From the NCBI GenBank assembly GCA_030141605.1, contig JAQGDQ010000239.1, positions 278,758 through 342,757 on the forward strand: a stretch of DNA of 64,000 bases, given 5' to 3'. This DNA is from Tubiluchus corallicola. Its lineage: Eukaryota; Priapulida; Priapulimorpha; Priapulimorphida; Tubiluchidae. Made by a program: the position numbers and the translations under genes. Of this stretch, positions 1,843 to 64,000 are shown one piece after another. Positions within the stretch are counted from its first letter, which is position 1. Each line of letters begins with the position of its first letter. The notes beneath the pieces were generated by a model. That model was given only the letters and a program-made list of their open reading frames with translations. It made no database searches and was not told the DNA's origin.

Positions 1843-4170
1843 TTAAAATATCAATATAAATTAAATAATTAATTAAATACAAATTAAACATTTTATAAAA
1901 TAAAATATCAAATAATTCTGAGCCAACTCTAGTGCAAAATAGTTGGTTCAATTAGCAATGCACTTTCACGTACATTATGACAAAATAAAAATCAATAACA
2001 ACAAAAAAGTAAATAAAGCACTAAACTACAGTAATATTAGACAACTGAAAAATATACGATATCAAATTTTTGTCATATCACATCATGCATGCACATATGC
2101 CTTTATGGTAAACATTGCTCTGAAAACTCTTATTACTAAGTACTAGTAACACAATAAACCAAAGAGAATGTAAATGGGCTGAACTTGGTGCAAAGCAAAA
2201 CTAGACAAAAGTTCTGAAACACTGGGACTTTCTCACTTGACACTTTTTAAAATAAAATTATGTGCCTCACCAAATTTAGTCATTTTAGTCTACAGTTAAC
2301 TTACATAATGCATAACCAAATTATTACAATTCTATTGTTAGGCAAAACCAATTGAAATTTGATATCAAACTGATGTCGAAGGGGCTACAGGAAGTGTGAA
2401 AAAAAGTGTAAAATTAAGAGTGAGCAAATGAGTGCGGTACTTTGGCTGGCCATAAACCCCGGTAATGGTTCTAAGCAAATTAGCACGTGCTTTAGCACAA
2501 ATGTAAGGCTAGTGTGGCGAAAGCCTAAATTTAATACCATAATCCATTTTATTGTGTGAACAGAAATGTAAAGTGACAATAATAAAAAGCGCACTCAAAA
2601 AATACAATAGGCATGTCACTACAATGATGTTAATTATACAGACATAAAAATAATACTTAATAGATTAAAATGTCTCTGTGTTTCAGGGTCAGTTACCTAA
2701 GTTTTTAATTTCTGATACTAATTTTTGCTATTGCAGACTTACATGTATATAATATTCATAACGCATATCACTGGAATATAAATATTACATATTTTTCTAA
2801 TATTGCCAAATGTTACTGTACAGTACTTGTAATCTAGCTTAAAAGTTTAACCAATAAAAAAATATTAAACACAGAATATTTTATTGGTATGATTATTATA
2901 AGCATTGACTGAAAGTGATGTGTTGTATATGAAAAATGTACATTTATAAAGCACATTTTTTAAATCAGAAACCCATTTACGCCCATTAGGACATTCATTT
3001 ACCCTGTATATCATGACTACTGCAAATTTTACTGGCTATGAAGATGTTAAGATGTTATTTTATTATAACATTTAACCAAACAGTAAAAAGTAGAAGCAAG
3101 ATAAATGCACGCATTTCAAAAACTGTTGAGTGTTATTTTGTCAAGGTATTAGTAGTCAACATAATAAACAAATTTTGATTTAATTACAATAACTAATTTT
3201 TAACTGTACAATTATTAACAATAGGCCAGTGACAATAGTAACAACTCGTGTTTTGGTAAACTACTAGTAAAACTGCCGATTGGAGTAAATCACTATGAAA
3301 CTCAACAGAATGTGTTCTGCAATGACCGTACAATAGCTATCCTACGCACAGTAATAATAAATATACATAAACTAAATATGTACAGCAACAAACCTATTTC
3401 CTGTTATTTACAGATTATATAAATAATCACCAATTAGCATATTTCTTAATTCACATAAATTAATCCACAGAACTGTAATTTACTGATTATGACACATACT
3501 AGTAGTTCCCAATTTAAATTATAATTAGAAGACGACACTTTATGAAGTTGCATCTCAATTAATGATTTTTTTCATTTGTTTACAAGTCATAATGCTGACA
3601 AAACCTGTAACAAAAATATAATTATCATAATTCTAATTCTACAGGATCCAAAGTTAGAAAAAACAGTATATCGTGGATAAACAATCACAATCACGAACTT
3701 CTCTCAAAGTCAAATACAAAAACAAATGAATGTTGTTGCAGTAAAAGCGAAGTATTAGTAAAAGGTAAGTACATGTTAAAACTAATCAACTTATAGTTTG
3801 CCCTATGTGATGATCAATTACAGCAATTCAGGTGAAGCTAAGAAAACTGAAATAAATTTATTTTCTTAAATTTTCTCTACAGTTTGTTTCTACATGGAAT
3901 TACAAGTTAGTCACTTAAAATTTGAATGAGTTAAAGCCATAAGTCAGGAACATTAACAAATACAATAACTTATTACTAATTATATTGTGCTGCAAGCAGA
4001 ATTTCAAAAATGTCAGTTTAAGCAAATAACTATTATTTTTACACAAATTTGTGGATCACACAAATTTGTTATAAGCAAAATTTTCCATATAATCATGGAA
4101 GAACAATGAGTACAACAATAATTTCTGACTAATAAATTTAAGATGTATGCAGAGGTTATGTTTTTAAATA

Positions 4171-5087
4171 CAGTAGGTGCCGCTTAATAGACTCACGGTT
4201 AATAGACTCAATCGCTCAATTGACTCAAAAATGCCTGGAACGGGCTGCTTCAATTGAAATATACATAAAAACTATCGGTAATTGGCTCAAATAACTCCGC
4301 TTAATTGACTCAATATTTTTCCTTCACCTACTTAAAATAAGATATTTGTATGTGCTCAAAGAATCTTTCCTACTTTTATTTCATCTTTGCTTCCCTTTTG
4401 TGCACCATGCATGCAGAAACAATCATGTTAAGTACCGTTTTGTTTGTAAGCAGGTACGTTTATCATATGCTAATACACTAGCTTGGCGGTTTTGCTTTGA
4501 ATCTGTTATCCGCTCGCCCACTGTTGCCCAAAGAATTTCTGGAAGCTAACCATTTAATCACTTGTCAAGCAGTTTCCTTTTGATGCTCTCGTTGCAAATC
4601 ATGCTTTGAGGCTTAATCAGTTAACAGTCAAAGATGCAGGTACAGTAACCAGCTGGTATTCATTGTGACTTACAAGACTAAACATTGTACTGCAAATAAG
4701 AGCAAAGTAAGTGAGTAATTAAGAGAATTTGTGGGCAAAGTTCTTCGCAAGAAAATGAAGCCGCCGACCTTGAAGCAATTTTTGTAATTTTTGCAAATGA
4801 ATAGACTTAGAAAAGTCTGTGATTTAGAAGAGTATACTTTTTAACTTATTGCTAATTCACTAATATAAATTAATATTTTAAAATATTTTTTCTAATTTTT
4901 AACTGCACAAAGGAATTAAGGCATTAGTTCATTTCTAAAGTTCATTAAAAACCTTTGCAGTGCATAGTAAGCTGATGACTCATACTTCTATACCTGTAAT
5001 ACTACACCCATCGTTTAATAGGTTCAGTCGATTAATTGGGTTAAAACACGTCGATCCCAAAGTGAGTCTATTAAGCGGCGCCTACTG
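4171..5087. mobile_element. Tigger-like (pogo) DNA element, copy 1
   Basis: A 917-bp element flanked by TA (4169-4170, 5088-5089). The ends are inverted repeats: left CAGTAGGTGCCGCTTAATAG, right (reverse complement) CAGTAGGCGCCGCTTAATAG, followed by related subterminal motifs (GACTCAC and GGTTAATAGACTCA). The inner part has no intact transposase. The right 350 bp is clearly similar to the 438-bp copy at 62247-62684, which looks like an internal deletion derivative of the same family. TA duplication and end sequence fit the Tc1/mariner superfamily, pogo/Tigger branch. Confidence 0.8.
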
Positions 5088-5922
5088 TACAAACAATCAG
5101 ACTTTGTTTATAAGTACAGCAGCAAAAGTTGACCAGTTGCGATCTTATCGCCAGGGGCATATCAACACTTTAGGATGCTCTAAGCTGGCAGTTCTCTGTC
5201 ATGCCCATCTCTATTATGAATTTATGGTTGCTTATGTAATAAGCAGATTAAACACTTACTTGAGAGTATAAGAAACACTATTAACCTAGTTTCTACTACG
5301 TAGTCATTATTAATTACACGTAATTGCATAGCGCTTATATTCCAGCAGGCCGCGCAACTGCTTGTTGTGTAATACCTTGCACCTGTTCGTTGTGTGGCAC
5401 TTATGTAAAAGCTGAGCTCAGTAACTGCCTGTGGTGTGTTATAAAATGTGCCCTTTACATGAATATGAAAGTACACACATTTTCCAAGGAGAATAAGAAT
5501 TTTTTCTAAAGTGTGACTCAAACTTCAGTGTCTTAGGCTATAGCCTAGTTAGCCTATTGGTTAATAGGCCCCCACTTATCGCTTCAGTTGTTTAGCTGTA
5601 AGATCACTTCTGACACAAAAATATATATTGCACATCATTTTCTGTGTGTAATCTTTAAACAGGATTTTCATAACTTGAAATGAAAATGTGGCAAAAATAA
5701 AAAAATGCTGATCACCAACTGTTTTGTTTTACAATAAAAAAATCTCAAAATCAACATAAGAAACACCAGCTGAATGAATCACTTGTCAAACTTCCATCAC
5801 ACACAGCTAATTAAGAGTATAAAAATGCAGTAAATGAATACTAGCATAAAATTTTGCCTCAAGTCTTCAAGAGGAAGTGTGGTAACTAGAAGCTAGAAAA
5901 GTCTGGTTAGCTGCTACTAATG
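5088..5922. other. Likely 3' flank or 3' UTR of SLC35F5
   Basis: This lies downstream of the SLC35F5 stop codon on the minus strand. Short open frames on both strands have no recognisable similarity. I did not find a convincing minus-strand AATAAA close to the stop, so the 3' end of the transcript is not defined. Confidence 0.4.
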
Positions 5923-8900
5923 TCAAGATTCATGAATGTTGGAGTTGATGAGACTTTCTTTCTGTTCATGATCAATGTCTCTCAATCTATACGAATGACA
6001 AAATAAAAAAAAGATTGCTTTACAAGATAATTTACACCGTAAATATGAAATAATAATACTAAAATGCCATTATCCTTTTGCATATAAAAATATGTGACTA
6101 CCAATAACTGCTCAGATGATTTTCAACTTTTATGATAGATGCAAAAGTTTTAGCTTAGAATAACCTAATTTAGAAGTTCTTTTTAAAGAAAAGTGTAGTA
6201 AATTTCCAATTAACCCACAAAAGTGCATGCTTCAATTTTTCTTGATAGCTATTGTACATTCACCTGCCCTTTTCAAGCATAAACACTGAAGCTTTAATGC
6301 TTTATCTTTCAAATGCCAGTAAACTTCAGTCGGTTCAGGTTTCACCACATTAAAAGTGTCCTGCAGTTGTGCTGGATCCCAGTTTGCAGAGTGACAGACT
6401 GTATGGAAAACTGGGACTATTAAAAATGACTAAATATTCATAGTGTCAAAGAACAAAATTCTTACAAAACCATGAAATAATGTTCTGATCATTTTGTTTT
6501 CATGAGTATTAAGCTTTTGTTTATTTTATATAGAATACGAGTATATACCAGTTACCTTACAATTCATTATCTTTATCTCCTTTACTTTAATTTAATATAT
6601 CAAATTCACTTGGACATCTAACTTTTTTTGAATAAATTTATTACTTTTATTTTTCAAAGCTGTTTAATTTGCATTAAAATTTTTTAGGAAATCTTGTACT
6701 TTTCATCCAATTAATAACTATCAATGTGCTTAGGATGAACTGCTGTTTAATTTACCAAAATGCACCGACCTAATAATTTACCTTTCTTTTATAAAATGTG
6801 GCTAAACTTGGTTCTTACATCTGTTTAATTTGAATTAGAAAATCTAAGAAGTGCTGCAATGGTCATCAAATTAACAGGTAACAAGAACAATGATTTACCT
6901 TGTAGGAATGTGGACATGGCGCTTGCAAATGCAGTGCACAAATTTCTTCAAGTAAATTAATACAGGATCCCATGTTTCATAGCTAGCTAAAATCCCTACA
7001 GCTACAAATGACAAAAACACTGGAATGGCTCCGACAAAAAATTCCCATTGATAGATCACCTGCAACAGAAAGACTCCAATTGTTCTCATCTGGAGTTATG
7101 TAACTAAGATTTGAAAATACAGCTGCTATTCTCAAAAGTAAATCAGGGAACAGTAGAGCTAATTCAATTAAAACTTCCAAATCCTACAATAGTAACTACT
7201 TTGACTTACACTATTAGGTTTGTATTTAACATTTTTTTCTGAGAAAAATTAATGAACTTCTCTAATCCTTGTTGACAAGTTAATGCACAACATACCTTGA
7301 TGCACTATGTGCTAAAATTTTTTATGCTGTACTTAAATAAAGTCATAAGTTTATGTTTTAGTTCAGCAGCCTTGCATTCATTTTCAATTTTTATTTTGGT
7401 CACAACCATTGTTAGCAGACAAGCAAAATATTGTTTCTCACTGTACATTGATCAATAGAGCTTCTCCATTAATGCAGTGCAAAACAATCAAAATCACACA
7501 AAAATTTCCCATCTTAAGCGATTCTGGCTGCTACATTTCATGTATGGAGAATCCAAACAATACAGGGAGTAGTTAATATATAGAAAAAGTAAGGTAAACA
7601 CCAAGTGGAAGCTGCTTCTCTTCAATAAATTTTACTATACGCCATTCAACAATGACATAATGAACCAGCACTGCAACTAAATCATTCAATCATCTGAAGG
7701 ACAAAATTTGAGACTAAAATTAAATTTAAGCTAATGTCACTTTATATACTTTGTGATTTTAGTGGCTTTTTTGCATTATTCTTCGTTCTGAAGATAATTA
7801 AACAAAACACATTAAACGTCAAAAACATTAAATTTTTATTGCTGCTTTACAGCTTAATGATTGGAAGAAAAGTATCTTTAAATCTACAAAGAGAAAACCT
7901 ATTCAAAAACTGGCTCTACTTTTCTACAGACATTATACAATTTGTGGTCACATCTGGTATATTTTCAGCACATATGACTGCTTTCCTGATTTGTGGGAGT
8001 AAAGTCGAGAATTTTTTTTCTAAAAGTTGAAACCAAATCAGGGTGTTAGAATTGTTAGCCATTGTGTGCTTTAATAGAGGTAGTCAACCTGATTGTAGAT
8101 ACACTATTATCACATTAATTAGCTTTCAAATTGTAAAATAATATTTGTTGAAGTTATGCAATAATATATAAAATTCAAAAACAGTTTCTTACGTGTTTCA
8201 TCAACACGTCAGCCAGAATTGTAGCAGGAATTGTCAGGCTCAATGCCAATGTAGCAAGCAGAGAAGTAGTCAGAAAACAACCCCTAGAAAAATACGTCAG
8301 TTTATAATACTGGCATCAATGCAAGTAGTTAAAGGTAAATAATTTTACTGCTAGGTTTACATGATGTATGCTCATCATAAAGCAATAACTTTGTCCATAG
8401 TTCAATTGCTAGCGGTGAGCGTTCCAGGTGTAATTCCATGTACTGCAAGATAAAGTAGGTCAGCTAGCTATCCTCTATCCACTTCACTTACATTAGTAGT
8501 ATATAGTATTAGTAGTATAGTAGCCTCATTTATCTGTATATACCATTGTACTCTTATGATAGACTGGATGTAGTTAATGTATATTTTGTAATCTGATGGA
8601 GAAAGTAAATTTTAATTCCATTCAATAATTCATTTCAGTTCTATATGCTGATGTCTAACACTTGATAACATTAAATCTGATAAATCAAACACAGAACAAC
8701 CTAATTTGCTTATCCTGTGAACATGTGCTGAAACATGGCTCCCAAAAACACTATTTCAGGGGGTAATACCGAATAATCCAAAAGATGTATATTAATCTAT
8801 AACACTAAAACTTTGTTAGGAGTTTGAAAAAATATTGAATATAAAAGTTTCACAGAAAATGTTAAATACAAAGAAGTTTAAAACATACAGATAAAATTTA

Positions 8901-25362: not shown

Positions 25363-26163
25363 TTAGACATTATAGCAAAAACTGCATAATATCCACTGAC
25401 CTTGACCTATTTTGTTTAAGATCAATGCACATCAGTCTGGGTTATTCCAAGTCTTGCAATATAAGTTTCCAAGATTCGAGCTGCTATACATTCTCAGTTA
25501 CTGTCATGGAAATATATTTTAGACGATCGCCTGTGTCGTATGACCTGGCCCTACCCACTTCTTACTTCTACCTAGCTGTGCAGATACACAATTTCTAGCA
25601 CAGTTCTATAAGAGGAGTTGACAGTTGCCCTAATTTTGACATTTTGACCCCAGTCAAAGCTATTTTAAGCTATGCCCACTTTTTGAAAAATAATTGATGC
25701 CTGTCTACCACCACCATACCGCCAGACTCACAAAAAAAATTGGACATACGTCAAACCCTAGGAAACGTTGAGCAACAAGCTTATTTTTAAGTGTTACTGG
25801 CAGTCATTTTTAAATCTGAGATGGAAGCCAAAGCTTTGCATGAAAAAAATGGCATCTACCTATCAGTTTTGAATTCAGCACCTCCAAGTTGATTTAATCA
25901 ATAGACCATAGAAATCAATTTTGGCAAAAAATTGAGCTAATCCCAAATGTTTGAAATAGCACACTGTACTAAAAGTTAAAAGTAAAATAAAAATTATCTG
26001 TAACTTGTTCTACTTTGTTGTGCAATGGCAAGTCAGGAAAAGTTTACTTGACTTGGAATGTGCATTAAACAAGTTTGTAACCAACAAATGATTTTTATTT
26101 TAAGGCACACAAGTCACCATGGTAATTACTTGCTAGTCTTGGCATTACACAGAGAAAACAGTC
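25363..26163. other. Upstream flank of the winged-helix/PNP gene
   Basis: No exon or repeat is recognised. The promoter and 5' UTR of the gene starting at 26164 should lie here. There is no obvious TATA box or CpG-rich patch. Confidence 0.4.
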
Positions 26164-27900
26164 ATGGCAGAATCTGCAGAAGAAAAAATTGTACTTACTC
26201 CTAAGAAAAAGAGTAAGCTTTCTACTACTCTTCTCATGCAAAGGGTGAAGAAACAAACTGATGAAAGTAAAGTGCTTCATGTTGCTGGTGGTGCTCATAA
26301 AGGCATTGTAATTAACAAGGATGTGAACCAAGATGCACTGCTGGAAGCTGATCCACCTCACCTTGTTCTGCAGTTCAAAGTGTATTTGCAAGATGCAGCT
26401 AGATCAGATACATTGCTTACCAAAGAAAGCAGAATACTTCGGTTTTGGTATAAAGATGGTGTCAGTCAGGATGAAAGGATGAAAGATGCTCATGAATTTT
26501 TTAAGGAACTTGTTAGGCCAAATGACTTTCCTAGAGATTATGTGGGTTTCATCAAGAAAATAATGAAGATGATGCAGTTGAAATTTATGGATCCCTACAA
26601 AATTGAAGTAGAAATGACACAACAAGAAGAATTGGTAGAAGCCCCTGTAAGCCCTAGAGAAGAGAAGGATGATTTCAATTTCATGCAAATTGCTTCTGAG
26701 GACAGATTACTTGAGCTAATTGAACTTGCTTATCCAAATGCATTGTCAATTGCAGATCTTCAGCAGAATGTCACTGGATCTGAGGATGAAATTACGGAAA
26801 TGTTGCAGAATTTGGAAAGAAAGAATCTCATTAAACAGATGGATAATTTGACATGGATGCGTGTGGTAAAATTTGATGCTGATGTGAAAATGGTCAAACA
26901 AATGCCTAAAGTGGCCCAGATAGAACAACCTACCATAGCTATCATAACTGCTTTATATCCAGAAAAGGTAGCTGTTGATGCAATGATTGAAAATCAACAA
27001 ACTTTTGTACGCTATAAAACCGAAGGAGAAGCAAACGTTTACACCTTGGGTGACATTGGTTCTCATAGAGTTGTCTGCACAAAGTTACCTTCAGTAGGTC
27101 ATACACGGTCAGCCATGATAGCTGCAGGCAATACTACTACAAGGCTTCTGGGAACATTCCAAAAAATAGAATACGTGTTCCTGGTAGGAGTAGGCGGTGG
27201 TGTGCCACATTACACTGACTATAAAAAACATATTAGACTGGGTGATGTTGTTGTTTCTGCTCCAGAATTTGCCAACAGCCCAATGTATATTTATTGCGAA
27301 GAGCGAAGAGAAAATGAACATACAGGAAACATTGAATGGGATACAAAAACTTGGTGTCCTGCTGATTTATGCATTCAGACTATTGCAGCAAACCTTGTGC
27401 GGGATTATGAGAGCAATCCTGCTGATGCTCCTTGGAATGCTTACCTATGCGATGGTATCAATAAGTTGAAGTCGGAAGAAGCTAGCTTTGACAGGCCCAG
27501 TGTAGATCTTGATCGGCTTTTTATGAATGTAGGCAGCAATAACCTGATCGAGGTTTCACATCCAGAAGCTCCTGATGATGTGTATGATGCACGCAAGGCA
27601 GGCATTCCTGTCATTCACTTTGGTCGTGTCGTCTCTGGTAATGCTGTTGTCAAAGAGGAACGAATGAGGCAGGCATTTGCTGTTACAGCCGGTGTAGCAG
27701 CATATGATCAAGATTTTGATGCTGTTACTGAGTCTGTCTATGGCAGCAGAATCGACTGTTATGCATTTATAAGAGGAATAGCTGATTATGTTAATGGTAC
27801 AAAGGGAAAAGAGTGGCAGCCATATGCAGCATTGGCTGCCGCTGCATTTATGAAAGAGATCATTTTGCGACTTCCGCGACCTTCTCTCAGTGAAGATTAA
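26164..27900 (+). CDS. Winged-helix plus nucleoside phosphorylase-domain protein, intronless
   Basis: An uninterrupted 578-codon frame, ATG to TAA. Residues 1-50 are basic and low in complexity. Residues 55-145 form an unrecognised helical segment. Residues 172-235 (RLLELIELAYPNALSIADLQ onward) look like a winged helix. Residues 256-572 are a PNP/UDP-phosphorylase (MTA/SAH nucleosidase) fold: IAIITALYPEKVAV strand (258-271), glycine loop VGVGGGVP (341-348), RLGDVVVS (358-365), IPVIHFGRVVSGNAV (481-495), and FIRGIADYVNGTKGKEWQPY (535-554). E523 aligns with the substrate-binding Glu and D541 with the catalytic Asp of the family. So the enzyme is probably active in cleaving an N-glycosidic bond; the substrate is unknown. 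A soluble protein is expected, with no signal peptide or membrane segment. Lack of introns is unusual beside its neighbours and suggests an old retrogene or a naturally single-exon gene. Confidence 0.9.
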   Translation: MAESAEEKIVLTPKKKSKLSTTLLMQRVKKQTDESKVLHVAGGAHKGIVINKDVNQDALLEADPPHLVLQFKVYLQDAARSDTLLTKESRILRFWYKDGVSQDERMKDAHEFFKELVRPNDFPRDYVGFIKKIMKMMQLKFMDPYKIEVEMTQQEELVEAPVSPREEKDDFNFMQIASEDRLLELIELAYPNALSIADLQQNVTGSEDEITEMLQNLERKNLIKQMDNLTWMRVVKFDADVKMVKQMPKVAQIEQPTIAIITALYPEKVAVDAMIENQQTFVRYKTEGEANVYTLGDIGSHRVVCTKLPSVGHTRSAMIAAGNTTTRLLGTFQKIEYVFLVGVGGGVPHYTDYKKHIRLGDVVVSAPEFANSPMYIYCEERRENEHTGNIEWDTKTWCPADLCIQTIAANLVRDYESNPADAPWNAYLCDGINKLKSEEASFDRPSVDLDRLFMNVGSNNLIEVSHPEAPDDVYDARKAGIPVIHFGRVVSGNAVVKEERMRQAFAVTAGVAAYDQDFDAVTESVYGSRIDCYAFIRGIADYVNGTKGKEWQPYAALAAAAFMKEIILRLPRPSLSED

Positions 27901-37085: not shown

Positions 37086-38110
37086 ATTACCGCAAGCATG
37101 GAAGAATTCAATTGTGTCTCCGATTTTTTGTTCAAGAAAGGGGAACGTGAACTAAAAACCGAATACAGACCGATAAGCTTGACATCAATTATATGTAAGC
37201 TTCTTGAGAAAGTAATAAGAAATGCTATTTACGACCTTCTCATTGTCAATAGGCTTATTACTGTCTCTCAATATGGATTCATAAAAGGAAGTTCAGGACT
37301 GCATTTTGAACCTACTTGAGTCTTTAAATGACTGGCAAGAAGTCTAGATGAAGGGTCTTCTGTTGACAATATTTTACAATTTGCAGAAGGCTTTCCATAA
37401 AGTTCCACATAGAAAACTCATGTTAAAACTTGCCGCACATGGGATCTCTGGCAACTTCTACCACTGGATAGAAGACTTTCTTAAAGACCGCTGTCAATGC
37501 GTTCAATTCTGAGAAATCTTCATGGAGCTGAGTGCCACAGGGAAATGTATTAGAGCCTATACTATTCCTTATGTTCATCAACGACCTACCAGACAACTTA
37601 AATTCATCAGTGAAAATATTTGCCGATGATACAAAAATCTACAGGATATTGAAGTCAAATATTGACTACCATAGACTGCAAAATGATATTAACTTATTAG
37701 ACTCGTGGTCACAAACGTGGCAAATGCCTTTCAACATGGAGAGTGTAAGGTTCTACATCTAGGGAAAGACAATGTAACTCATGGCTACTATATGCGCAGC
37801 GATACAAATCAGTCTATTCCAATAATAGTAGTAACAAAACTGAAATACTTGGGTGTTTTAATTGACCAGTCTCTCACGTTTGATGAACACATTGACGAAA
37901 TATCCATAAGAGCTGGGAAACGATTATGGATGATAAGACGCTCTTTCACCTATGTGGACACTGACATGATGGCTATTTTATACAAAACATTCATAAGACC
38001 AATATCAGACTACAGTATGATATACGTACACATAAAGACAGTGTCTGGAATTGTCTAGGGCAAGTCTATGAGTATGACTATAAATTACCGTAGATTACCA
38101 TAGATCGACA

Positions 38111-45300: not shown

Positions 45301-48300
45301 TGTCAGATTTGGTAACATAATCCTTTCTAAGTTACGTAAAACAAACTGCAATTTGTAATATGGTGTCTTGCATTGTAGATTTCCATTTTTATTAAAAGCT
45401 GAACTTTTTGTAATATATTTGTAGTTTTTAATGCTTTGGTCTACTATATTTTAGGTCGATTTATATGCTGGCGCATTGTTTATCCAGCAAGCTTTAGCCT
45501 GGAATATCTATTGGTCTATAGCTGGTATATTAGCAATAACAGCTTTATATACCGTTGCAGGTACTATTTAGCAAAATTAAGTTTTTCTGTTAAGTAAGTT
45601 TTTAAATACAATTAAAAATGTGCACATGATGTTTCTCTGAATAATGTGTCTGTTATAGGTGATACTACTATCTCTCCAGTCAATCATATTTTATGTATTT
45701 CTGATGTATATTTCATTTTTATTTAGTTTTTGTAGCTACTAAAGTTGCTTTGTTTTTTTTTGTAGCTAATTAAAGTGTTTTCTATTATTAGATGCAAATA
45801 TATCTATTGTAATCCACTGATGTAGTACAAGTTTTGTTTGACACAAAACTGTTGTTATATTACTGATATGAGATTCTAATTTTTTGTTTCAATGCAGAGA
45901 ACCTAGAATATCTGTCAATATTTGCAGGTGGTTTGAAAGCAGTGATCTACACAGATAGTTTGCAAACACTGATAATGATTGTGGGAGCTACAATTCTTAC
46001 AACACTTAGTATGTTTCTTTATTGTATGCTTTAGATCGAACAATTACAGTATAATTGCATATATTAGTTAAGTGTCAAGTCAATATAATAAAACATAGTA
46101 GTTTATTTTTAGTCTAAGAACCAATAAGCCCTAAACTTGTATATATGTGTATATACACAGTATATACACATATATGCAAGTTTAGGACTCATTGGTTCTC
46201 AGACTCAAAAATCAACTATAAATATAATATGTAAGGTAAAGTAAATAGTATGGCATTGGCATTAATTGGCCACTAGAAAATGTCTAGATATATTTGCATT
46301 TTCTTCAAAAATTGCGTTTTTGTACCGGTATAAGGTGGGCTTTCTGCTCAGGTATGACAACTGCAAATGCTTAAAAAAGTATTCTTATGTTTAGGTTTTA
46401 TTGAAGTGGGTGGTTATGCAGAACTATATCGGAAGTATATGGTGGTAATCTAGCAGCTGCTAACTTTCTAATTTTAATGTTGTAGTAGAAATGTAAAATA
46501 TTTTTGTCTTGATTTACTTGTTAGTAATAGCACTAGTTAGTTACATGCACTATGACTGAGTACTCATTTTTAATTTTGATAGCTTGTTTTGGTTGTTTTT
46601 GTTTTCCTTTTTTTTGTAAACTGATAGCTGAAGATTATTTGTGAAAGCTAGTATTCTTTTCGCCCTCCAGTTATTTATAGGTAGAAGCATTATTTTCTTA
46701 AATGAACTGTATTAATTCCTTTCTCAATTACAGCTACAAAATTTTAGACATCTTCTTTTATTCTGGCTGTTTGTTTGTCAAGAACTTTCAGTGCTTCAAC
46801 TCCTACTGTTTGTTCCAACATCTGGGCAGTTTCAGAAATTCAGTTAACTTTTTTACTTTTTAAGTTTTTATCAATCTTCAAACAAGCTTTAAGTGATTTA
46901 TGTACAGACCTCATGTCTATATTGTATTTTTTGAGGCTCTGAGACTTTTTGTATAGTTTTTTTTATCCTGAATTGATTATTATTTTTATTATTTATTATC
47001 AAAAAGTTTTTCATTTTGATAGCGCTTTGTATAATTCTCTGTTTGATGGCAAGCCTATGGATAATTTTTTGCTGTTTTTTTTTCTTTACTATGTCAATTG
47101 CTTGTGAATTTATATGTACTTAGTTGGCAATAGTCGCATCCTTCTTGATCTCGCAATATTTTTCTCATGTGGATCAGTTATAAAATTTCTCCAGCACTAA
47201 CTGTATCAATTTTCCTCCAGTCTTCTTCGGAACTGCTTGTTTAACTATTGGCATTTATTAAACTACGTTTAATGACGCTGAATCTGTTCTGCATGGCTTT
47301 ACTTATCATTTTTTTCTGTAGTTTCTTATTTTACGTGACATACTGCTTTAAAAAATAGCTTTTTAACATATCTCTGTATTTTCTCACATCTGTTAAACTC
47401 GTAAAATTGCTTATTACTCATAATATTTGTTTATATTCACCTAAAACTTAAAGATTTACATTTGAACTCCTGACAAAGTTCAAAAGCAAGATAATTGTAC
47501 CAAATTTTCTTAACTGTGTTGTAAATGTATTTGCTTATAATTTTCTTATAGTGAGGCATAACAGAGAAGTTCTATTAGCTGAATTGTCTATAATGATTAA
47601 GTGAAAGTAGATTATGAAAGCATAATAATGGGATCTTTTAGATTTTGCAATATACTTGTATATGCTTTGTATTTTACAGGCTATACCTAACAGCACTTTG
47701 GAGAATCCAAACTCTTCTTGTGGATATCCAAGAGACGATGCATTTCATTTGGTTAGGGATTCACGTACTGCAGACTATCCTTTTGTTGGAACCATGTTTA
47801 GGTCAACTATTGGTGCTATTTGGTACTGGTGTTGTGATCAGGTGTGTTTCAATTTGTTGTTTAGCGTCAACCAGTCGAAAAGTAGTTTGATTTCTTCCTG
47901 TTTATTTCCAGTGTTGCGAAAAACGTTCAGTAACATTGTGAAGTGAGGTTTCCTTAGCATGATACTGTTTTCTGCAATTTAAGCTATATCAGTATACTGC
48001 AGTTACATAATCATCATTTTGGTTGCTCAGTAATTATGCACTAGGAGATTGTTGGACAATGGTCGGCAGACTTGGTAATTGAGGTCAATATTATCAGCTT
48101 TGAACTTTCAATAATAAGGGAGTCTCTTGGCTTTGTAGAAAGATTGCTTTTACGATTTCAAAGTAAAGGACACAAGTTTCTGTTGTGTCTTACTCGGTTC
48201 TGTGAATGAGACTAGTGATTTATACATCTGTGTTTTTCCTTTGTGCTTTTTATTTGCTGTACTTTTTGTTTTTCTATGTGATTGTAAGCGTTTTTAAGTG

Positions 48301-56053: not shown

Positions 56054-59000
56054 TTATGCAGTTGTTTGTCTACGCGGGCTATCAGCTGACCAGCTAATTG
56101 TGATCCTACCATCTTCATTATGACTAGATGACATACTGGAAGTTTCACTTTTATCTGTAGCAGTCCATGTTTTGAGATCGTTACTGGTCAGGTTATTGTC
56201 TTCTGATAAGCTACGATTGTGTTTCATAAGATCTAATGATCGCCGTTTTTCTTCTTCGCTGTGACTACGTTCAACTTTAATACTTGTATTTGCAATTTTT
56301 CCTTCTTCTGCACTGGATGCCCGACCGATATGCGGCCTCTTCATGTCTTCATCAGGAAAACTTTCTGATTTCCTAACCGATTTATCACTAATTCGCTTGT
56401 CTTTAGATGTCATTTCTAACGATTCAGCTAAAGACACACTACCACGACAAACAGTAGTAATGTCAGCTTTATTCACTTCTCCGTTCTGCGCAGGTGTTGG
56501 CGTTTCAGGTTCAGTGCCAACCTCTTTGCGCGAACGTGATTTTTCTACCCGTTTGGCTATGTTTCCAATTTTTAAGCCAATCCCTTTGCCCTTCTCTCTG
56601 AATGATTTTTCCAGTTTTTCAGTAACATCAGGGGTATGTTCTTCTGAAATTGATGCCAGTAAAGTCTGCTTACTGCTTGAAGCTGTATCATCACTGACAA
56701 TTGGTGTTATATCATCTGAAATGGAAGCAAAAAATTTTGATTGCACAGTTCTCCATCACTTTTATTCTCTTTTGAGAGACTACAATGGCAAAATGGTTGT
56801 TTCTTAATTATCTGGTTATTACAGCCCAGATGCAAGTGCCATATAATAACTGTTGTACCATACCACTGAATAAATTTCAAATTAGGGCCTATGCCACTAG
56901 TTGAGAACAGTACATTATCATAAACATGTGTACAGATTTATATGCATGCCTAAAATTAGGGATATAATTCTATGAAAAACATATATTACAAGGAGATTGT
57001 TTTGATGGATAACTCTAACTTTGATTCTAGCATGTGTCATTAACGGACAGATACTTCCATTTTTTTCACAAACTGGCAAAGAAATGAATCATTTAAGTTA
57101 ATTTTTGTCTTTTTACATAACTGCTATGGTACTTTAAACATATTTATTTTACAACCGTTGGACACTACAGTAAAATTGACACAAAAAGTTCTCTGTTACA
57201 AAGATAACACAAATGCAGTACTCGAAAGACAAAGTGTATAGTTACTATCTACGTAACAATTAGAGAAGCGTATCATTGTGCATGACAGAAAAAGACAGTC
57301 ACTTTCTAATAAGTATGAGGTAAACAAATGAACAGTAATATAACATTATCAACTGAACATATTGAATTTAGTTTAAGTTAAAACACTTAGTTTCTCTAAT
57401 ATAATTATGCACAATTTTGCAAAATCCAAACTGCGTCCTGATGTGATGGATTGGTTAAGAGCTTTTACCAAACGAATAAAACTTAGGAGTTTTAACAAAA
57501 TTTAAGTATGATTTAATCTAACACTAGAATAGATTTACGGAAGATGAATTTTTAATGCAATCTCTCAATCCCAAATGCACAGCAGAAGGGAAGAAACTAT
57601 TTTTAGATGCTTCTGCCGCAACAATAAACAACTAAACATGATCAGAATTTCGAAGGCTATAATTAGTAATATCACAAATGTGCTGGGGTAAAATAATACT
57701 GAGATAGTTCGGACTATAATATTGTTGATAATTTTATGCAATAGACATTATGCAGTAATAATTGGTGATGTCTGCACCAGTAAAACTTTTATTTAAGTTT
57801 TTTTTAAATAGTAATGAACTTCTAGTTTGCAGTGCAGTTATCAGTGATTCGATTACTGTTCTTCATACAGACCCACACTGCAAATGGGGATATAATACTC
57901 AATGGCAGGACCTATTTAAAGTAGATTGTAGTGAGGTTTAAAGTTAGCCTATTATCAAGGATATCTTAGGCACATTCAGGATGTCAGAGGCATTGCCAAG
58001 GCACTGTCTTTACTAAGAAAGCCACTGTCATGCAGTAGTGTTTAGTACTTATTTTCTGAATATTCTTGGGGCAAAAACTACAAACTAAACTAAATGCTCT
58101 GAGGACACATATAACTTCAAAAGTTTTCTTGAGAGGGATACCATAAAACGTAAAAAAATATAGTAAAATGATATCATAGATGGGATTTTTAATTTAACTC
58201 AATGTAAAAACCTTAAATATGACCTTTAAAAAGTGCTGCCTTCAGATACTACATACATACTAGCAAAAAACCTTGTTATTAAGTATATTTTTGTTACAAC
58301 ATCTTAGAACAATTGTAATCATCTGATAACCTGAGTTTCAACAGCGAAATTCAAATACAGAGCAACACTGACAAAAAGTAAAGCTCATACCTGGTAGTTT
58401 CTTAGCCCTAAAAGAAGCATTTGTTAGTAAAGTTAGTGACCCTCTGCGACTTGCAGCTGTTGATACAGTTGAAGTTCCCATGGGACCATCTTTTACTGCC
58501 TCAGTTGTCTTTAGTTTGTAAGAGTTTGTCATTGCATTTGTAACCTAAAAATATTACTGTTTTTATTATGCCTTTATGGATTATTTTCACTTCACACAAA
58601 AAATACATGTGCCGGCACTTACGTTATTAGCAGGTATTACATTTAATTTATGTTTACATGATACCTTGCCCTTTAAGTTAGTATCACAATGTTAATATTT
58701 GAAAATTAAAGTAACATTTTACCATCAAAACATCTGCTAAAAGTTCTAGACTTGCTCGTGCATGTATTAACTTCACAGCGTTTAATACTTCAAGTGATAA
58801 ACCATTATACCTACAAATAATTAAATGTAAAAGAGCTCAAAATATCAAAATCACAAAAGTGAATAAAACAAAATTTGATTACAAAATGAAATGGTGACTG
58901 TCAATTAAATGGGCATATTTTTGAAATGGAAATAACTACTGTAAATTGCACTCTGTACAGGACTTCATAGTAGAGTGTTAACAAAACTGTGCATTAAACC

Positions 59001-61124
59001 ACTAACATTGCATACTAACTATCTTTCTAAAAACTCTTTGAAGTTTCATTTTGGAAAGACAACAGATTAAAAACAAACTAAGGTACAAAGTTTTTCTCAG
59101 TAGACCTTTTTCAAAACCTCCATGCCTGTCAGTGGCATCTCGAAAAAAGCACTTTCGAGGCAACCCAACTCATTTACCTGTGATTGCCATATTGTTCATT
59201 GAACTTTGCCAGCAATTTTTAGCTGTAATAATGACTACAAAGATTATCAGTGGTGATAATAAAGATAAGAACTTTTATGCTATTATATTGTTATATACGT
59301 TAGAATACAGTATAGTTGAAAAAGATTTGTGTAAAAAATGAAAAATTCAGTAGATTGTGCTGCAACTATTAACAAGCCATTATAAAAAAGATGGCATCAA
59401 TTTTACTAAAAGTGAGTTATCCACCATTTACCTTATTTTTATTCAATAAGTGTATAATTTATAGCTGAACAATGTATTTTTCTGAATCACTGTAAATTTT
59501 TTGATACTTGAGACATGTTCTTTTACGTGAAAAATTCCGAAACCAACCTTCTTCCTATATTATTAGTGGCCATTTGAAAGACTTTTCAAAACTCACTGTC
59601 GCTGTGTTTATGATCCTATCCCAATGTTGATCAATTTCATAAAACAGCAGCAAGTATCATTTCCTCATGTCTGTTCGGAAACTAGTTTCACAAAATGAAA
59701 TTATTCAAAGTTCGATTTACAACAGAACATAAACCAATTTCACCGACAGGTTGATGTGACCATAACAACTTTCATAGAGTGCGTGAAACCTTCAAATAGT
59801 TTGCATGCCCTCAGACAATTTAAAGCAGAATCAAATCTGGTTTTTGCTGACATTATGAGTTTCCTAAGATTATAAAAAAATGTAAATCAAGAAGTTCGTT
59901 TGTGTAAGTTCTGTGGCAACTTGAACTGCATGCCTACAGATACAATCAATACAAAATCATTGGTCAGGCTACCAGAGAATGAGCCAGTGCTGCATTTGCT
60001 GTAGTTGTGCGCAATCTCATGAAAAAGGTTTATTCGAGGCTTTAGTCATAAGACATTAATTAATAAAAAACTTTGACTTAGTCAATTCATGCACAATTCA
60101 TTCTAGTATATTCCAGTAAAACCTCATGATGAACTATTGTGCATTTTCAGTCTTACACTTTTCACTTTTTCCAAAATGTACTCACTTGTTATCACTGCCA
60201 CCTTGAATTCAGTGACCAAGCCTGTCGATAAAGAATTCATTCTAGTATATCTGTGCAAAGTTACATGATGATCCGTTGCAAGTTGACAGACAGAGTCTTA
60301 CGCATTTACAAAAATGATGTCATCGCTGTCAACTTGAATTCGAAATGGCAGATCGAAAGTCCTATTCTATCAATTGATGTGGATTTTGTTTCAGTATATT
60401 TTTATAAAGTTATATGATGATCCATTTAGGATTAACATAGCTTTATGCTTTTTTCGAAAATAATATTATTGCTGCCATCTTGAACTCAAAAAGGCCGATC
60501 GAAAATCAGACTTTGTCACTCAATGCGTAATTAGTGCTAGTATATTCCTATAAAGTTCTATCCAAATGCAACTTGACCAAGCCTTAGGTCTTTTTTGAAA
60601 ATGATGTTACAGCCGTTATCTTGAATTCAAAATGTCGAACTGAAAATTCGACTCCATCAGGCCAAAATTAATTTTAGTATATTCATGTGAAGTTTCACGA
60701 TGACACATCGCAAATTCAAAGAACTTTAGATTTCGTTGGAAAGGTCAATTCCAAACAATAATAATAAGAAGAACAACAACAAGAACACCATCTAGATGGG
60801 TCAAGGCTCGACCAAAATTTTAGTTATCCTCATATTTGTCTAGAGAATAAAGCAGTCAAGGAACAGTGTGTTAAAATAGCATTTTAAATTTTTAGAACCA
60901 CTGCATGCTTGGTCTAATTCTAGATTCTAAATGCATTTTAATACACTTACATAACATAATATAAGCACTGCAATAAAGAAAGAAGAAATCTAGAATCAAC
61001 AACAATGCGATAGTGCCTTGTCACTGGGGTGTGTTGATTATCACAAGATTGCAATGAAGACGACTTAGAAGACAGCTTACTATTTGACAGGCTTGCACCG
61101 GCATTTCCCCCTGGCAATGACACT
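56054..61124 (-). CDS. HYCC1: Hyccin (HYCC1/FAM126 family), 3' exons
   Basis: Four coding exons on the minus strand: 61124-60951, 58810-58723, 58544-58391 and 56715-56054 (with TAA). The first ends in VVDSRFLLSLLQCLYYV, matching the helical core of hyccin. The second reads YNGLSLEVLNAVKLIHARAS and the third starts VTNAMTNSYK, matching the human blocks FYNGEWDLAQKALDDII and LVANAIK. The last exon is a Ser/Glu/Lys-rich tail of 219 codons with many RRSL- and SRSR-like phosphosites, as expected for the disordered C-terminus. Hyccin stabilises the PI4KA-TTC7-EFR3 complex that makes PI4P at the plasma membrane. Exons two to four join in phase. Between exons one and two a block of roughly 45 codons (human SLQSLCQICS to GIYFAF) is not found. 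The two exons that should precede 61124 are on the opposite strand at 61715-63060. Confidence 0.85.
60101..60790. repeat. Diverged tandem repeat, about 145-bp units
   Basis: Five diverged units begin with a TAGTATAT-like motif at about 60101, 60241, 60391, 60537 and 60672. Each goes on with AAAGTTACATGATGATCC-like and CTTGAATTCAAAATGGC-like blocks. It lies in the hyccin intron where one exon is missing. No protein similarity recognised. Confidence 0.7.
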
Positions 61125-61147
61125 CTGCAAAAAACAGATGTTTAACA

Positions 61148-61572
61148 ATGGCTCTAAAGTTCAATAAAAACCACAAGTTCTATTTACAAAAAGAAATGAA
61201 ACCGCTAGGATACAAATGTCTATAATAAAGTCTTATATGGAAGTATGTAAGTGTGAAAATGTATGAGGTTCGTCTTTGCAAAAAATCAGAGCTGTTCAGC
61301 TCACGTGCATTACACATTTTCAGTTCTGTTGTTTACATCTATATTTACTTATCTACTCAAATAAGAGTCTCAAATATATCTCAACCTCAAAAAATAGTCG
61401 GTAAAATTAAGCTTGCATACCTTGTAGCCATGTGGCACAAAGAATGAAAGGAATCTGATGTCATATTACTGATGTCAGAATAATAACAGTCTAACAGCTT
61501 GGATAAAATTAAGAACCTAAACAAATATAGACATATCATTCTCAAGTAGCATCACTAAGAAAAGTGAAAAGA
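61148..61572 (+). repeat. Left copy of a long inverted repeat
   Basis: 425 bp that reappear as the reverse complement at 63577-64000 with one substitution (T/C at about 61275) and one base missing in an A-run near 61560. The inner border is sharp (the sequences differ from 61573 and 63576 inward). The outer border is not seen because the other copy runs into the end of the window. It starts 24 bp from the acceptor of a hyccin exon. Its 64-codon open frame is not a recognisable gene. Confidence 0.95.
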
Positions 61573-61714
61573 GCCCTTCAAACAATTTATACTAATAGAA
61601 ACTTGTTTATTCAATTTTTAAAATAAGTGATTCAGTTATATTTACCAGTTGATGTTAAGCTGTTAATGATTATAGTCTGTGTATACATGACTCGTTGACT
61701 AATTATCATTGTAG

Positions 61715-63060
61715 GTGGTCAGTAAAAATGGGTCATCAACCAAATCAACATTCCGGATACCAGTTCTTTCACAACCTTCAGTTTATCATGAAGTAAGTTT
61801 TAGGGTATTACCATGTTGTAGTGGATAAGCATTTTCATATTTCAAATATAATTTCTTTGTTTTTCCAACTATGTCTTGACATTAAGCATATAACTAATTA
61901 GAACAAAGTGTAATCAGTTGTTATCGAGTGTTTTCTGTAGTTATGTTATGTTCATTTATTATTTGTGTCTAGTTAGTATTAAGAACTAATCTCAAACGTA
62001 CCATTATTGTTATTTATGAAATCTCAAAATTGTGCTATCAAGTGGACATTGCGGATGACAGTATGCTGTTAAATTATTAAGAGCACATTTTTCTTGCCAT
62101 CAATTTAGTTAAATTCTTCTGCTAGAAAATATAACGTTTCTCATTTGATTATGGCACTTATGATGGCATAATAAATTTTTAACTCGATGCGTGCTGGAGC
62201 AGTTTTTATGAGTTACATGACTTTGTTAAGGAGGAATTACTTAATACAGTAGGTGCCGCTTAATATACTCACGGTTAATAGACTAAATCACTTAACTGAC
62301 TCAAACGCCTGGAACAGACCGCTTCTATTCAAATATACAACCTCTGAGCGAGAAAATTAGGCAGCCGACTTTGAAGGAATTTTTGTAATTTTTCCAAATA
62401 AACAGACTTAGAAAAGTCAGTGATTTAGAAAAGTATACTTTTTAATTTATTGCTTATTCACTTATATAAATTAATATTGTAAAATATTGTTTCTAATTTT
62501 TAAGCGCACAAAGGAATTTAGGCATTACTTCGTTTCTAAAATTCATTAAAACCTTTGCAGTGCATCATAAGCTAATGATGACTCATACTTCTGTAATACG
62601 ACACCCATCGGTTAATAGGTTCAGTCGGTTATCTGAGTCAAAGCACGTCGGTCCCAAAGTGAGTCTATTAAGCGGTGTCTACTGTAGTAGGAATTAAAGT
62701 GGTTCTACATCTACTTATATGAATAATAGATAAAACAAAAAATAAATAAATAAAAATAGACGAATTCGTTTCTTGTATTTATGAGTCAATTTAAAACAGT
62801 GATTGCTTAATTTTTCTGCTTAATAACGAAACTCTCGTAAAAACTGGTTTGGTTAGCTTAAAATTTCCAAATGAATTTTGCATTGTGTCACATGAACTTA
62901 TCACAGACTTGCATTTAGAATTTTTTCAAATCTTACAGAAAATAGCAGCTGAGCCTGGTACTCTCACAGAACATGCTTTATCTAGATACGAACAAAAGGA
63001 GCCACGAATAGTGACTCTTAAATCATTTCCTGTGATTGAAAATATTACTGCTAGCAGCAG
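61715..63060 (+). CDS. HYCC1: Hyccin (HYCC1/FAM126 family), two middle exons, opposite strand
   Basis: Exon 61715-61792 (26 codons, phase 0 to 0) reads VVSKNGSSTKSTFRIPVLSQ and then PSVYHE, matching human hyccin [20 protein letters not shown] and SVYHE. Exon 62939-63060 (phase 0 to 2) contains GTLTEHALSRYEQ, matching ALTESALSQHG. Acceptors (CATTGTAG, AATCTTACAG) and donors (GAA|GTAAGT, CAG|GTAAGT) are strong. The last exon ends AG, which joins in frame with the A that starts the minus-strand exon at 61124. So these exons belong directly before it, yet they face the other way. N-terminal exons are not in the window. The intron between them holds a Tigger-like MITE (62247-62684). Confidence 0.88.
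62247..62684. mobile_element. Tigger-like DNA element, copy 2
   Basis: A 438-bp element flanked by TA (62245-62246, 62685-62686). Left end CAGTAGGTGCCGCTTAATAT; right end, reverse-complemented, CAGTAGACACCGCTTAATAG. It matches the left 100 and right 350 bp of the element at 4171-5087 with scattered differences, so it is an internally deleted member of the same family. It is inserted in a hyccin intron. Confidence 0.8.
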
Positions 63061-63576
63061 GTAAGTGCTTAGGTGTAAAAACCAGTTCTGTTATCTTGAT
63101 ACCTTTTCATTTAATCTAAAAACAAGTTTCAGTACATCAACATGCTAAAGTGTTTTAACAAATATTAACCCAAAAATAAACAGTTTGTCTACCAATCATC
63201 AGAATACTCTTTAACTATTAATTGCTAGGGTATTACAAATATTTGTGGTCTTGATTTTTGAGAATAATAGTTAATAATGGAATAAACGACAGTTATGGAA
63301 ATTTTTGATACCAATTTAACTGAAAGAAAAGAAATGTGAAACCTCAGTACTAAATTTGGATTTACCAGCCTTTTCAAGTGTTAGTTTGCTCATGCTAAAG
63401 CCATAGCTAATTAGATTATTTTTTGTTATCAATTTAGACTCTGGAATGATCCATCAGTAATTAAATAATTATTTTTGAAATATTTTAAGCCATTCACTTT
63501 TGCAATAAATTGGGTATACTTTCAATCTGGAAAATTGTTCAACTACATTTATTTACACTTGGTGAAGAATTGCGGC

Positions 63577-64000
63577 CTTTTCACTTTTCTTAGTGATGCT
63601 ACTTGAGAATGATATGTCTATATTTGTTTAGGTTCTTAATTTTATCCAAGCTGTTAGACTGTTATTATTCTGACATCAGTAATATGACATCAGATTCCTT
63701 TCATTCTTTGTGCCACATGGCTACAAGGTATGCAAGCTTAATTTTACCGACTATTTTTTGAGGTTGAGATATATTTGAGACTCTTATTTGAGTAGATAAG
63801 TAAATATAGATGTAAACAACAGAACTGAAAATGTGTAATGCACGTGAGCTGAACAGCTCTGATTTTTTGCGAAGACGAACCTCATACATTTTCACACTTA
63901 CATACTTCCATATAAGACTTTATTATAGACATTTGTATCCTAGCGGTTTCATTTCTTTTTGTAAATAGAACTTGTGGTTTTTATTGAACTTTAGAGCCAT
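63577..64000 (-). repeat. Right copy of the long inverted repeat (runs off the window)
   Basis: Reverse complement of 61148-61572, about 99.5% identical. It is cut by the window edge, so its true length is unknown. It lies in the intron that follows the plus-strand hyccin exon 62939-63060. Confidence 0.95.

Follow-up and report, generated by a model that had tools for sequence, protein, structure and literature searches.

Hyccin exons on both strands at a contig end of the Tubiluchus corallicola assembly: a probable foldback chimera

Inverted chimeras formed during multiple displacement amplification are described by Lasken and Stockwell (2007; PMC1855051), whose account includes the joining of nearby segments at short complementary words: 3′ ends primed at 2–21 complementary bases in over 70% of junctions, and the number of such chimeras falls with distance. 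Foldback and inverted-repeat artefacts are also among those described for nanopore libraries (PMC12870357; PMC13141652). Here we analysed a stretch of 64,000 nucleotides (the window) from the priapulid Tubiluchus corallicola, which corresponds to positions 278758–342757 of contig JAQGDQ010000239.1 (here C1095) in an assembly of 343.5 Mb and 2,344 contigs (GCA_030141605.1), and in which exons of the hyccin gene (FAM126A) lie on both strands beside a near-identical inverted repeat. The flipped exons are very probably an artefact, namely a foldback (inverted) chimera at the end of C1095.

Hyccin exons and inverted arms at the contig end

Two hyccin exons (numbers 3 and 4 of the gene model given below) were found on the plus strand and three (6, 7, and 8) on the minus strand, which confirms the opposite orientations reported in the original prediction (coordinates in Table 1). 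The plus-strand exons sit on a 2-kb loop, or piece, between two arms that are inverted copies of each other, with 423 of 424 bases identical and the sole difference at 61277/63871; the 100% identity given by the repeat search is a rounded value. If the comparison is widened to 425 bases by adding 61572/63576, there are two differences, as had been stated earlier for a 425-bp repeat. An inverted repeat of such length and identity is not due to chance.

The outer arm stops at the contig end: base 64000 of the window is the final base of C1095 (342757 of 342757), so the contig breaks off inside the right arm. The proposal to inspect the bases after 64000 therefore has nothing in C1095 to act upon. 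An inverted duplication, also offered in the original prediction, fits the sequence as written, and its right arm cannot be traced further, as the contig ends inside it.

A collinear arrangement on a second contig

A genome-wide query with the arm gave three matches, two of them in C1095 and one in a second contig, C1350. The 2-kb piece has two full copies (best 40 of 1902 candidates), one in C1095 and one at C1350:87704–89707, and the other matches listed cover only a repeat-like stretch inside the piece. That stretch (window 62244–62695, within a hyccin intron) has its main matches at 82–89% identity and occurs at no fewer than 38 further places, one of them in the window near 4747–5089; its ends appear by eye as inverted CAGTAG.../...CTACTG with TA at the edges, and it may be a short DNA transposon.

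Window 61560–64000 is 99.92% identical to C1350, with 2 differences in 2,441 positions (61563, at the edge of the junction word described below, and 61627). Read in reverse, window 61575–61063 aligns with positions 5706–6217 of the fetched end stretch of C1350 (L006) over 513 columns at 99.6%, with 1 mismatch and 1 gap. The order in C1350 is that of one strand throughout: N-terminal exons (L006:2565–2666 and 3051–3230), then the piece, the arm, and the start of exon 6. The N-terminal exons that had been predicted past 64000 on the minus strand thus exist, but on C1350. No inverted self-matches were found in the last 6.6 kb of C1350, and no arm lies upstream of the piece, so that the same genome holds a collinear copy without a second arm.

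Another option in the original prediction was that inverted repeats already in place had recombined and truly inverted the piece, and the near-identical inverted arms that flank the piece in C1095 are what such an event would use. Such an inversion needs both repeats in the uninverted arrangement, however, and C1350 has only one arm. On the upstream side of the piece, the flank of C1350 matches the window over GTGAAAAGAGCCC alone and then diverges, which leaves no long repeats to recombine. Unless C1350 is misassembled at that point, it contradicts this inversion, which we consider extremely improbable.

A gene model was obtained by reading C1350 through the arm and then continuing on the minus strand of the window, with exon edges set by hand and exons numbered from the first one found in C1350. 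The collinear model consists of eight exons, each between AG and GT, with an open reading of 331 residues that covers positions 2–319 of the 321 in the Pfam Hyccin profile (PF09790) at 287.7 bits, against a curated cut-off of 25 bits. The partial models reach 81.6 bits for exons 3–5 (profile 93–190) and 90.7 bits for exons 6–8 (profile 205–319). A phmmer search matched hyccin chains in the PDB (best E 2.9e-42), with the residues of exon 5 aligned gap-free after those of exon 4. This 96-bp exon, overlooked earlier, sits inside the arm and hence occurs twice in the window; its splice context is SSR/FLILSK...HMATR/VSLPGG (slashes mark the exon edges). A direct splice from exon 4 to exon 6, for which an exact AG + A join had been claimed, was rejected, given that exon 5 lies in between: the phase does agree, and the join looked exact because the 96 bp of the skipped exon are a multiple of 3 and leave the phase unchanged. 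Nothing unusual was seen in the collinear model, which takes in the coding sequence from profile position 2 onwards. Downstream of exon 8 on the same strand there is an open frame of 233 aa (window 56057–56755, minus strand), serine-rich by eye, which is perhaps the C-terminal tail of hyccin.

The stretches tested on either side of the overlap appear to be single-copy. The N-terminal stretch L006:2400–3703 has 1 genome match, C1350 itself, and window 58300–61147 has one full-length match, C1095 itself (best 40 of 279 candidates), the others listed being the 85-bp overlap with C1350 and diverged repeats. C1095 and C1350 therefore look like two complementary parts of one locus that overlap by about half a kilobase. 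Two separate hyccin genes were rejected as an explanation, as the N-terminal stretch is single-copy. A Pfam search of the genome for Hyccin yielded a single match among 10 candidates; since it treats each exon separately and missed other hyccin exons, it proves little alone. Taking both contigs together, hyccin in the organism would most likely be an ordinary one-strand gene that chimeric contig ends have broken in the assembly.

The turn point and other contig ends

Past the inner end of the left arm, GTGAAAAGGCCGC would follow in the collinear order, whereas the window goes on with GTGAAAAGAGCCC, which is the far end of the piece in C1350. Both sites have in common an 8-bp junction word, GTGAAAAG; for two positions picked at random, the probability of sharing at least 8 bases is about 0.0003. 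A sequence leaving the arm would have jumped at this word onto the opposite strand, to its counterpart at the far end of the piece, and would then have read back through the 2-kb piece into the arm, giving the last 2.4 kb of C1095. A single jump of this kind would account at once for the apparent inversion and for the near-perfect inverted repeat, and the simplest account of the alignments is that the repeat is the product of the jump, not its cause. The suggestion that the assembly holds the piece in the wrong orientation was thus probably right in substance, although what C1095 appears to contain is a chimeric end that duplicates 424 bp, not a piece flipped between genuine repeats.

The right end of C1350 is, to judge from its sequence, chimeric as well, and independently of the fold in C1095. 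Its last 390 bases (L006:6212–6601, C1350:90211–90600) are 100% identical to C70:133987–134376, and the word CTAAGT is common to both contigs at the switch. In C70 this segment comprises a phosphofructokinase exon and the intron sequence beside it, and the adjacent exons stand in profile order on the same contig (48–102, 104–147, 149–200). Around the same segment (L008), two similar phosphofructokinase exons stand in tandem by eye, and may be alternative exons. The chimeric end of C1350 would suit the converse reading, in which C1095 is right, the plus-strand exons come from a rearranged hyccin, and the collinear order is the artefact. In the C1350 order, though, the exon phases match and the hyccin domain is complete, and an artefact would hardly restore a conserved gene; we give this reading almost no credence.

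Elsewhere, the start of C2321 (L068:1–534) is a foldback with arms at 1–161 and 374–534, and C1846:211250–212050 (L069) carries the loop and the inner arm collinearly and lacks the outer arm; here too the junction word is 8 bp long. The two contigs are only about 92% identical in this region, and C1846 may be allelic or paralogous. The left tip of C1095 is also a foldback (L036:1–1475, arms 1–685 and 791–1475, 98.8%), related at about 70–76% to many places, as is the tip of C254 (1–593/956–1529, 95.4%). These last two tips are made of or contain repeats, and no unique collinear copy was found for them among the best 40 of 430 and the best 40 of 3748 candidates, respectively.

We also surveyed 60 contig starts of 4 kb, 58 of them taken at even steps of contig number and two (C1095 and C1350) chosen on purpose; three starts were all N and one had 2,500 N, which left 57 that could be used wholly or in part. 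Three of these 57 (two of 55 without the purposely chosen contigs) had an inverted repeat with an outer arm running from base 1, a length of 100 bp or more and an identity of 95% or more. With the threshold at 85% or above and both arms in the first 2 kb, the count by eye was 5/57, against 0/57 in the inner 2 kb, and 4/55 without the purposely chosen tips; an inverted repeat in C566 (89.5%) spans beyond 2 kb. One-sided Fisher tests gave 0.029 for the comparison of 5/57 with 0/57 and 0.12 for the count of three. Among 4-kb pieces from the interior of the window, one of 15 had a match (at least 60 bp, at least 85%), a spacer-less palindrome at 46099–46218 (87.6%), and none of the 15 did so at 95%.

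The main competitor to an artefact is a recent, real foldback duplication, by a replication template switch at the 8-bp GTGAAAAG, that segregates in the species and splits hyccin in one haplotype, C1350 being the normal order. A microhomology-driven template switch would explain the structure and the 8-bp word no less well than an artefact does, and the arms, which differ at one site, need not derive from one molecule. Three observations speak against it: C1095 stops inside the arm, as a tip with poor support would be expected to do; C1350 ends in a further chimera, of a different kind; and no haplotype-like second copy of the tested stretches beyond the overlap turned up in the assembly (on the window side, among the best 40 of 279 candidates), so that C1350 looks like the sequence that continues C1095 rather than like a different allele of it. 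We hold this duplication to be unlikely. An artefact is favoured by the stop of C1095 inside the arm, by the likewise chimeric end of C1350 and by the similar start of C2321, and we infer that library preparation or assembly, not the organism, produced the chimera.

Several points weigh against a chimeric origin. At 61277/63871 it is the right arm, and not the left, that has the base of C1350, so the fold is not an error-free copy of a single molecule, and two molecules or haplotypes may be involved; the tip of C1095 and C1350 are also unlike at 61627. In assembled contigs a genuine rearranged allele could have just this structure, and to name amplification or a long-read foldback as the source of the chimera is a guess. 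The left tip of C1350 has no sign of chimerism, and all its matches are diverged, the best-ranked at 78% and the highest at 92% over 78 bases. The enrichment of contig starts in foldbacks comes from a small survey and is suggestive only, and assemblies may also break at genuine inverted repeats; the real evidence comes from comparing the tips with collinear copies, not from the survey.

Window features and comparison with known artefacts

The features at the hyccin locus are collected in Table 1. Further inside the window, the longest open frame lies at 26137–27897 (plus strand, 587 aa between stops), and a frame of 121 aa at 37693–38055 (plus strand) resembles by eye what we take to be the tail of a retrotransposon reverse transcriptase. 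An Rfam scan of the window gave 0 matches.

Table 1. Positions of hyccin exons, arms, loop, and junction in the window, with the basis of each assignment.
Feature	Position	Strand	Basis
Hyccin exon 3, on inverted loop	61715..61792	+	Gene model and Pfam
Hyccin exon 4, on inverted loop	62939..63060	+	Gene model and Pfam
Hyccin exon 5, second copy inside putative foldback arm	63632..63727	+	Gene model
Hyccin exon 5, collinear copy	61421..61516	-	Gene model
Hyccin exon 6	60951..61124	-	Gene model and Pfam
Hyccin exon 7	58723..58810	-	Gene model and Pfam
Hyccin exon 8, reaches Pfam domain end	58391..58544	-	Gene model and Pfam
Left arm, collinear copy; carries hyccin exon 5 on minus strand	61148..61571	+	423/424 to right arm; collinear in C1350
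2-kb loop (piece), inverted relative to rest of C1095	61572..63576	+	61573-63576 = C1350:87704-89707, collinear there with N-terminal exons and one arm
Right arm, putative foldback copy of left arm; ends at contig end	63577..64000	-	Inverted match to left arm, and contig end
8-bp junction word GTGAAAAG; inner end of arm and far end of piece in C1350	61564..61571	+	Junction alignment
Stretch collinear with C1350, overlap that would join both contigs	61063..61575	-	L006:5706-6217; beyond, C1350 turns to C70 phosphofructokinase sequence

Two contig ends at the hyccin locus, the right ends of C1095 and C1350, appear chimeric, and the left end of C2321 looks so elsewhere. In this assembly, inversion calls and gene models that lie close to a contig end need checking, and a hyccin annotation drawn from C1095 or C1350 as they stand would be broken.

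Of the systems described, the multiple displacement amplification chimeras in the account of PMC1855051 share with C1095 the inversion of nearby segments (less than 10 kb apart) at a short word, 8 bp here and 2–21 there; unlike them, C1095 reads back far enough to repeat the first segment, which gives a loop with two arms. The long-read foldbacks treated in PMC12870357 and PMC13141652 are alike in that a turn onto the opposite strand gives an inverted repeat. The default setting described for the foldback tool of PMC12870357 expects the turn within 200 bases, whereas the loop of C1095 is about 2 kb long and turns at an 8-bp word.

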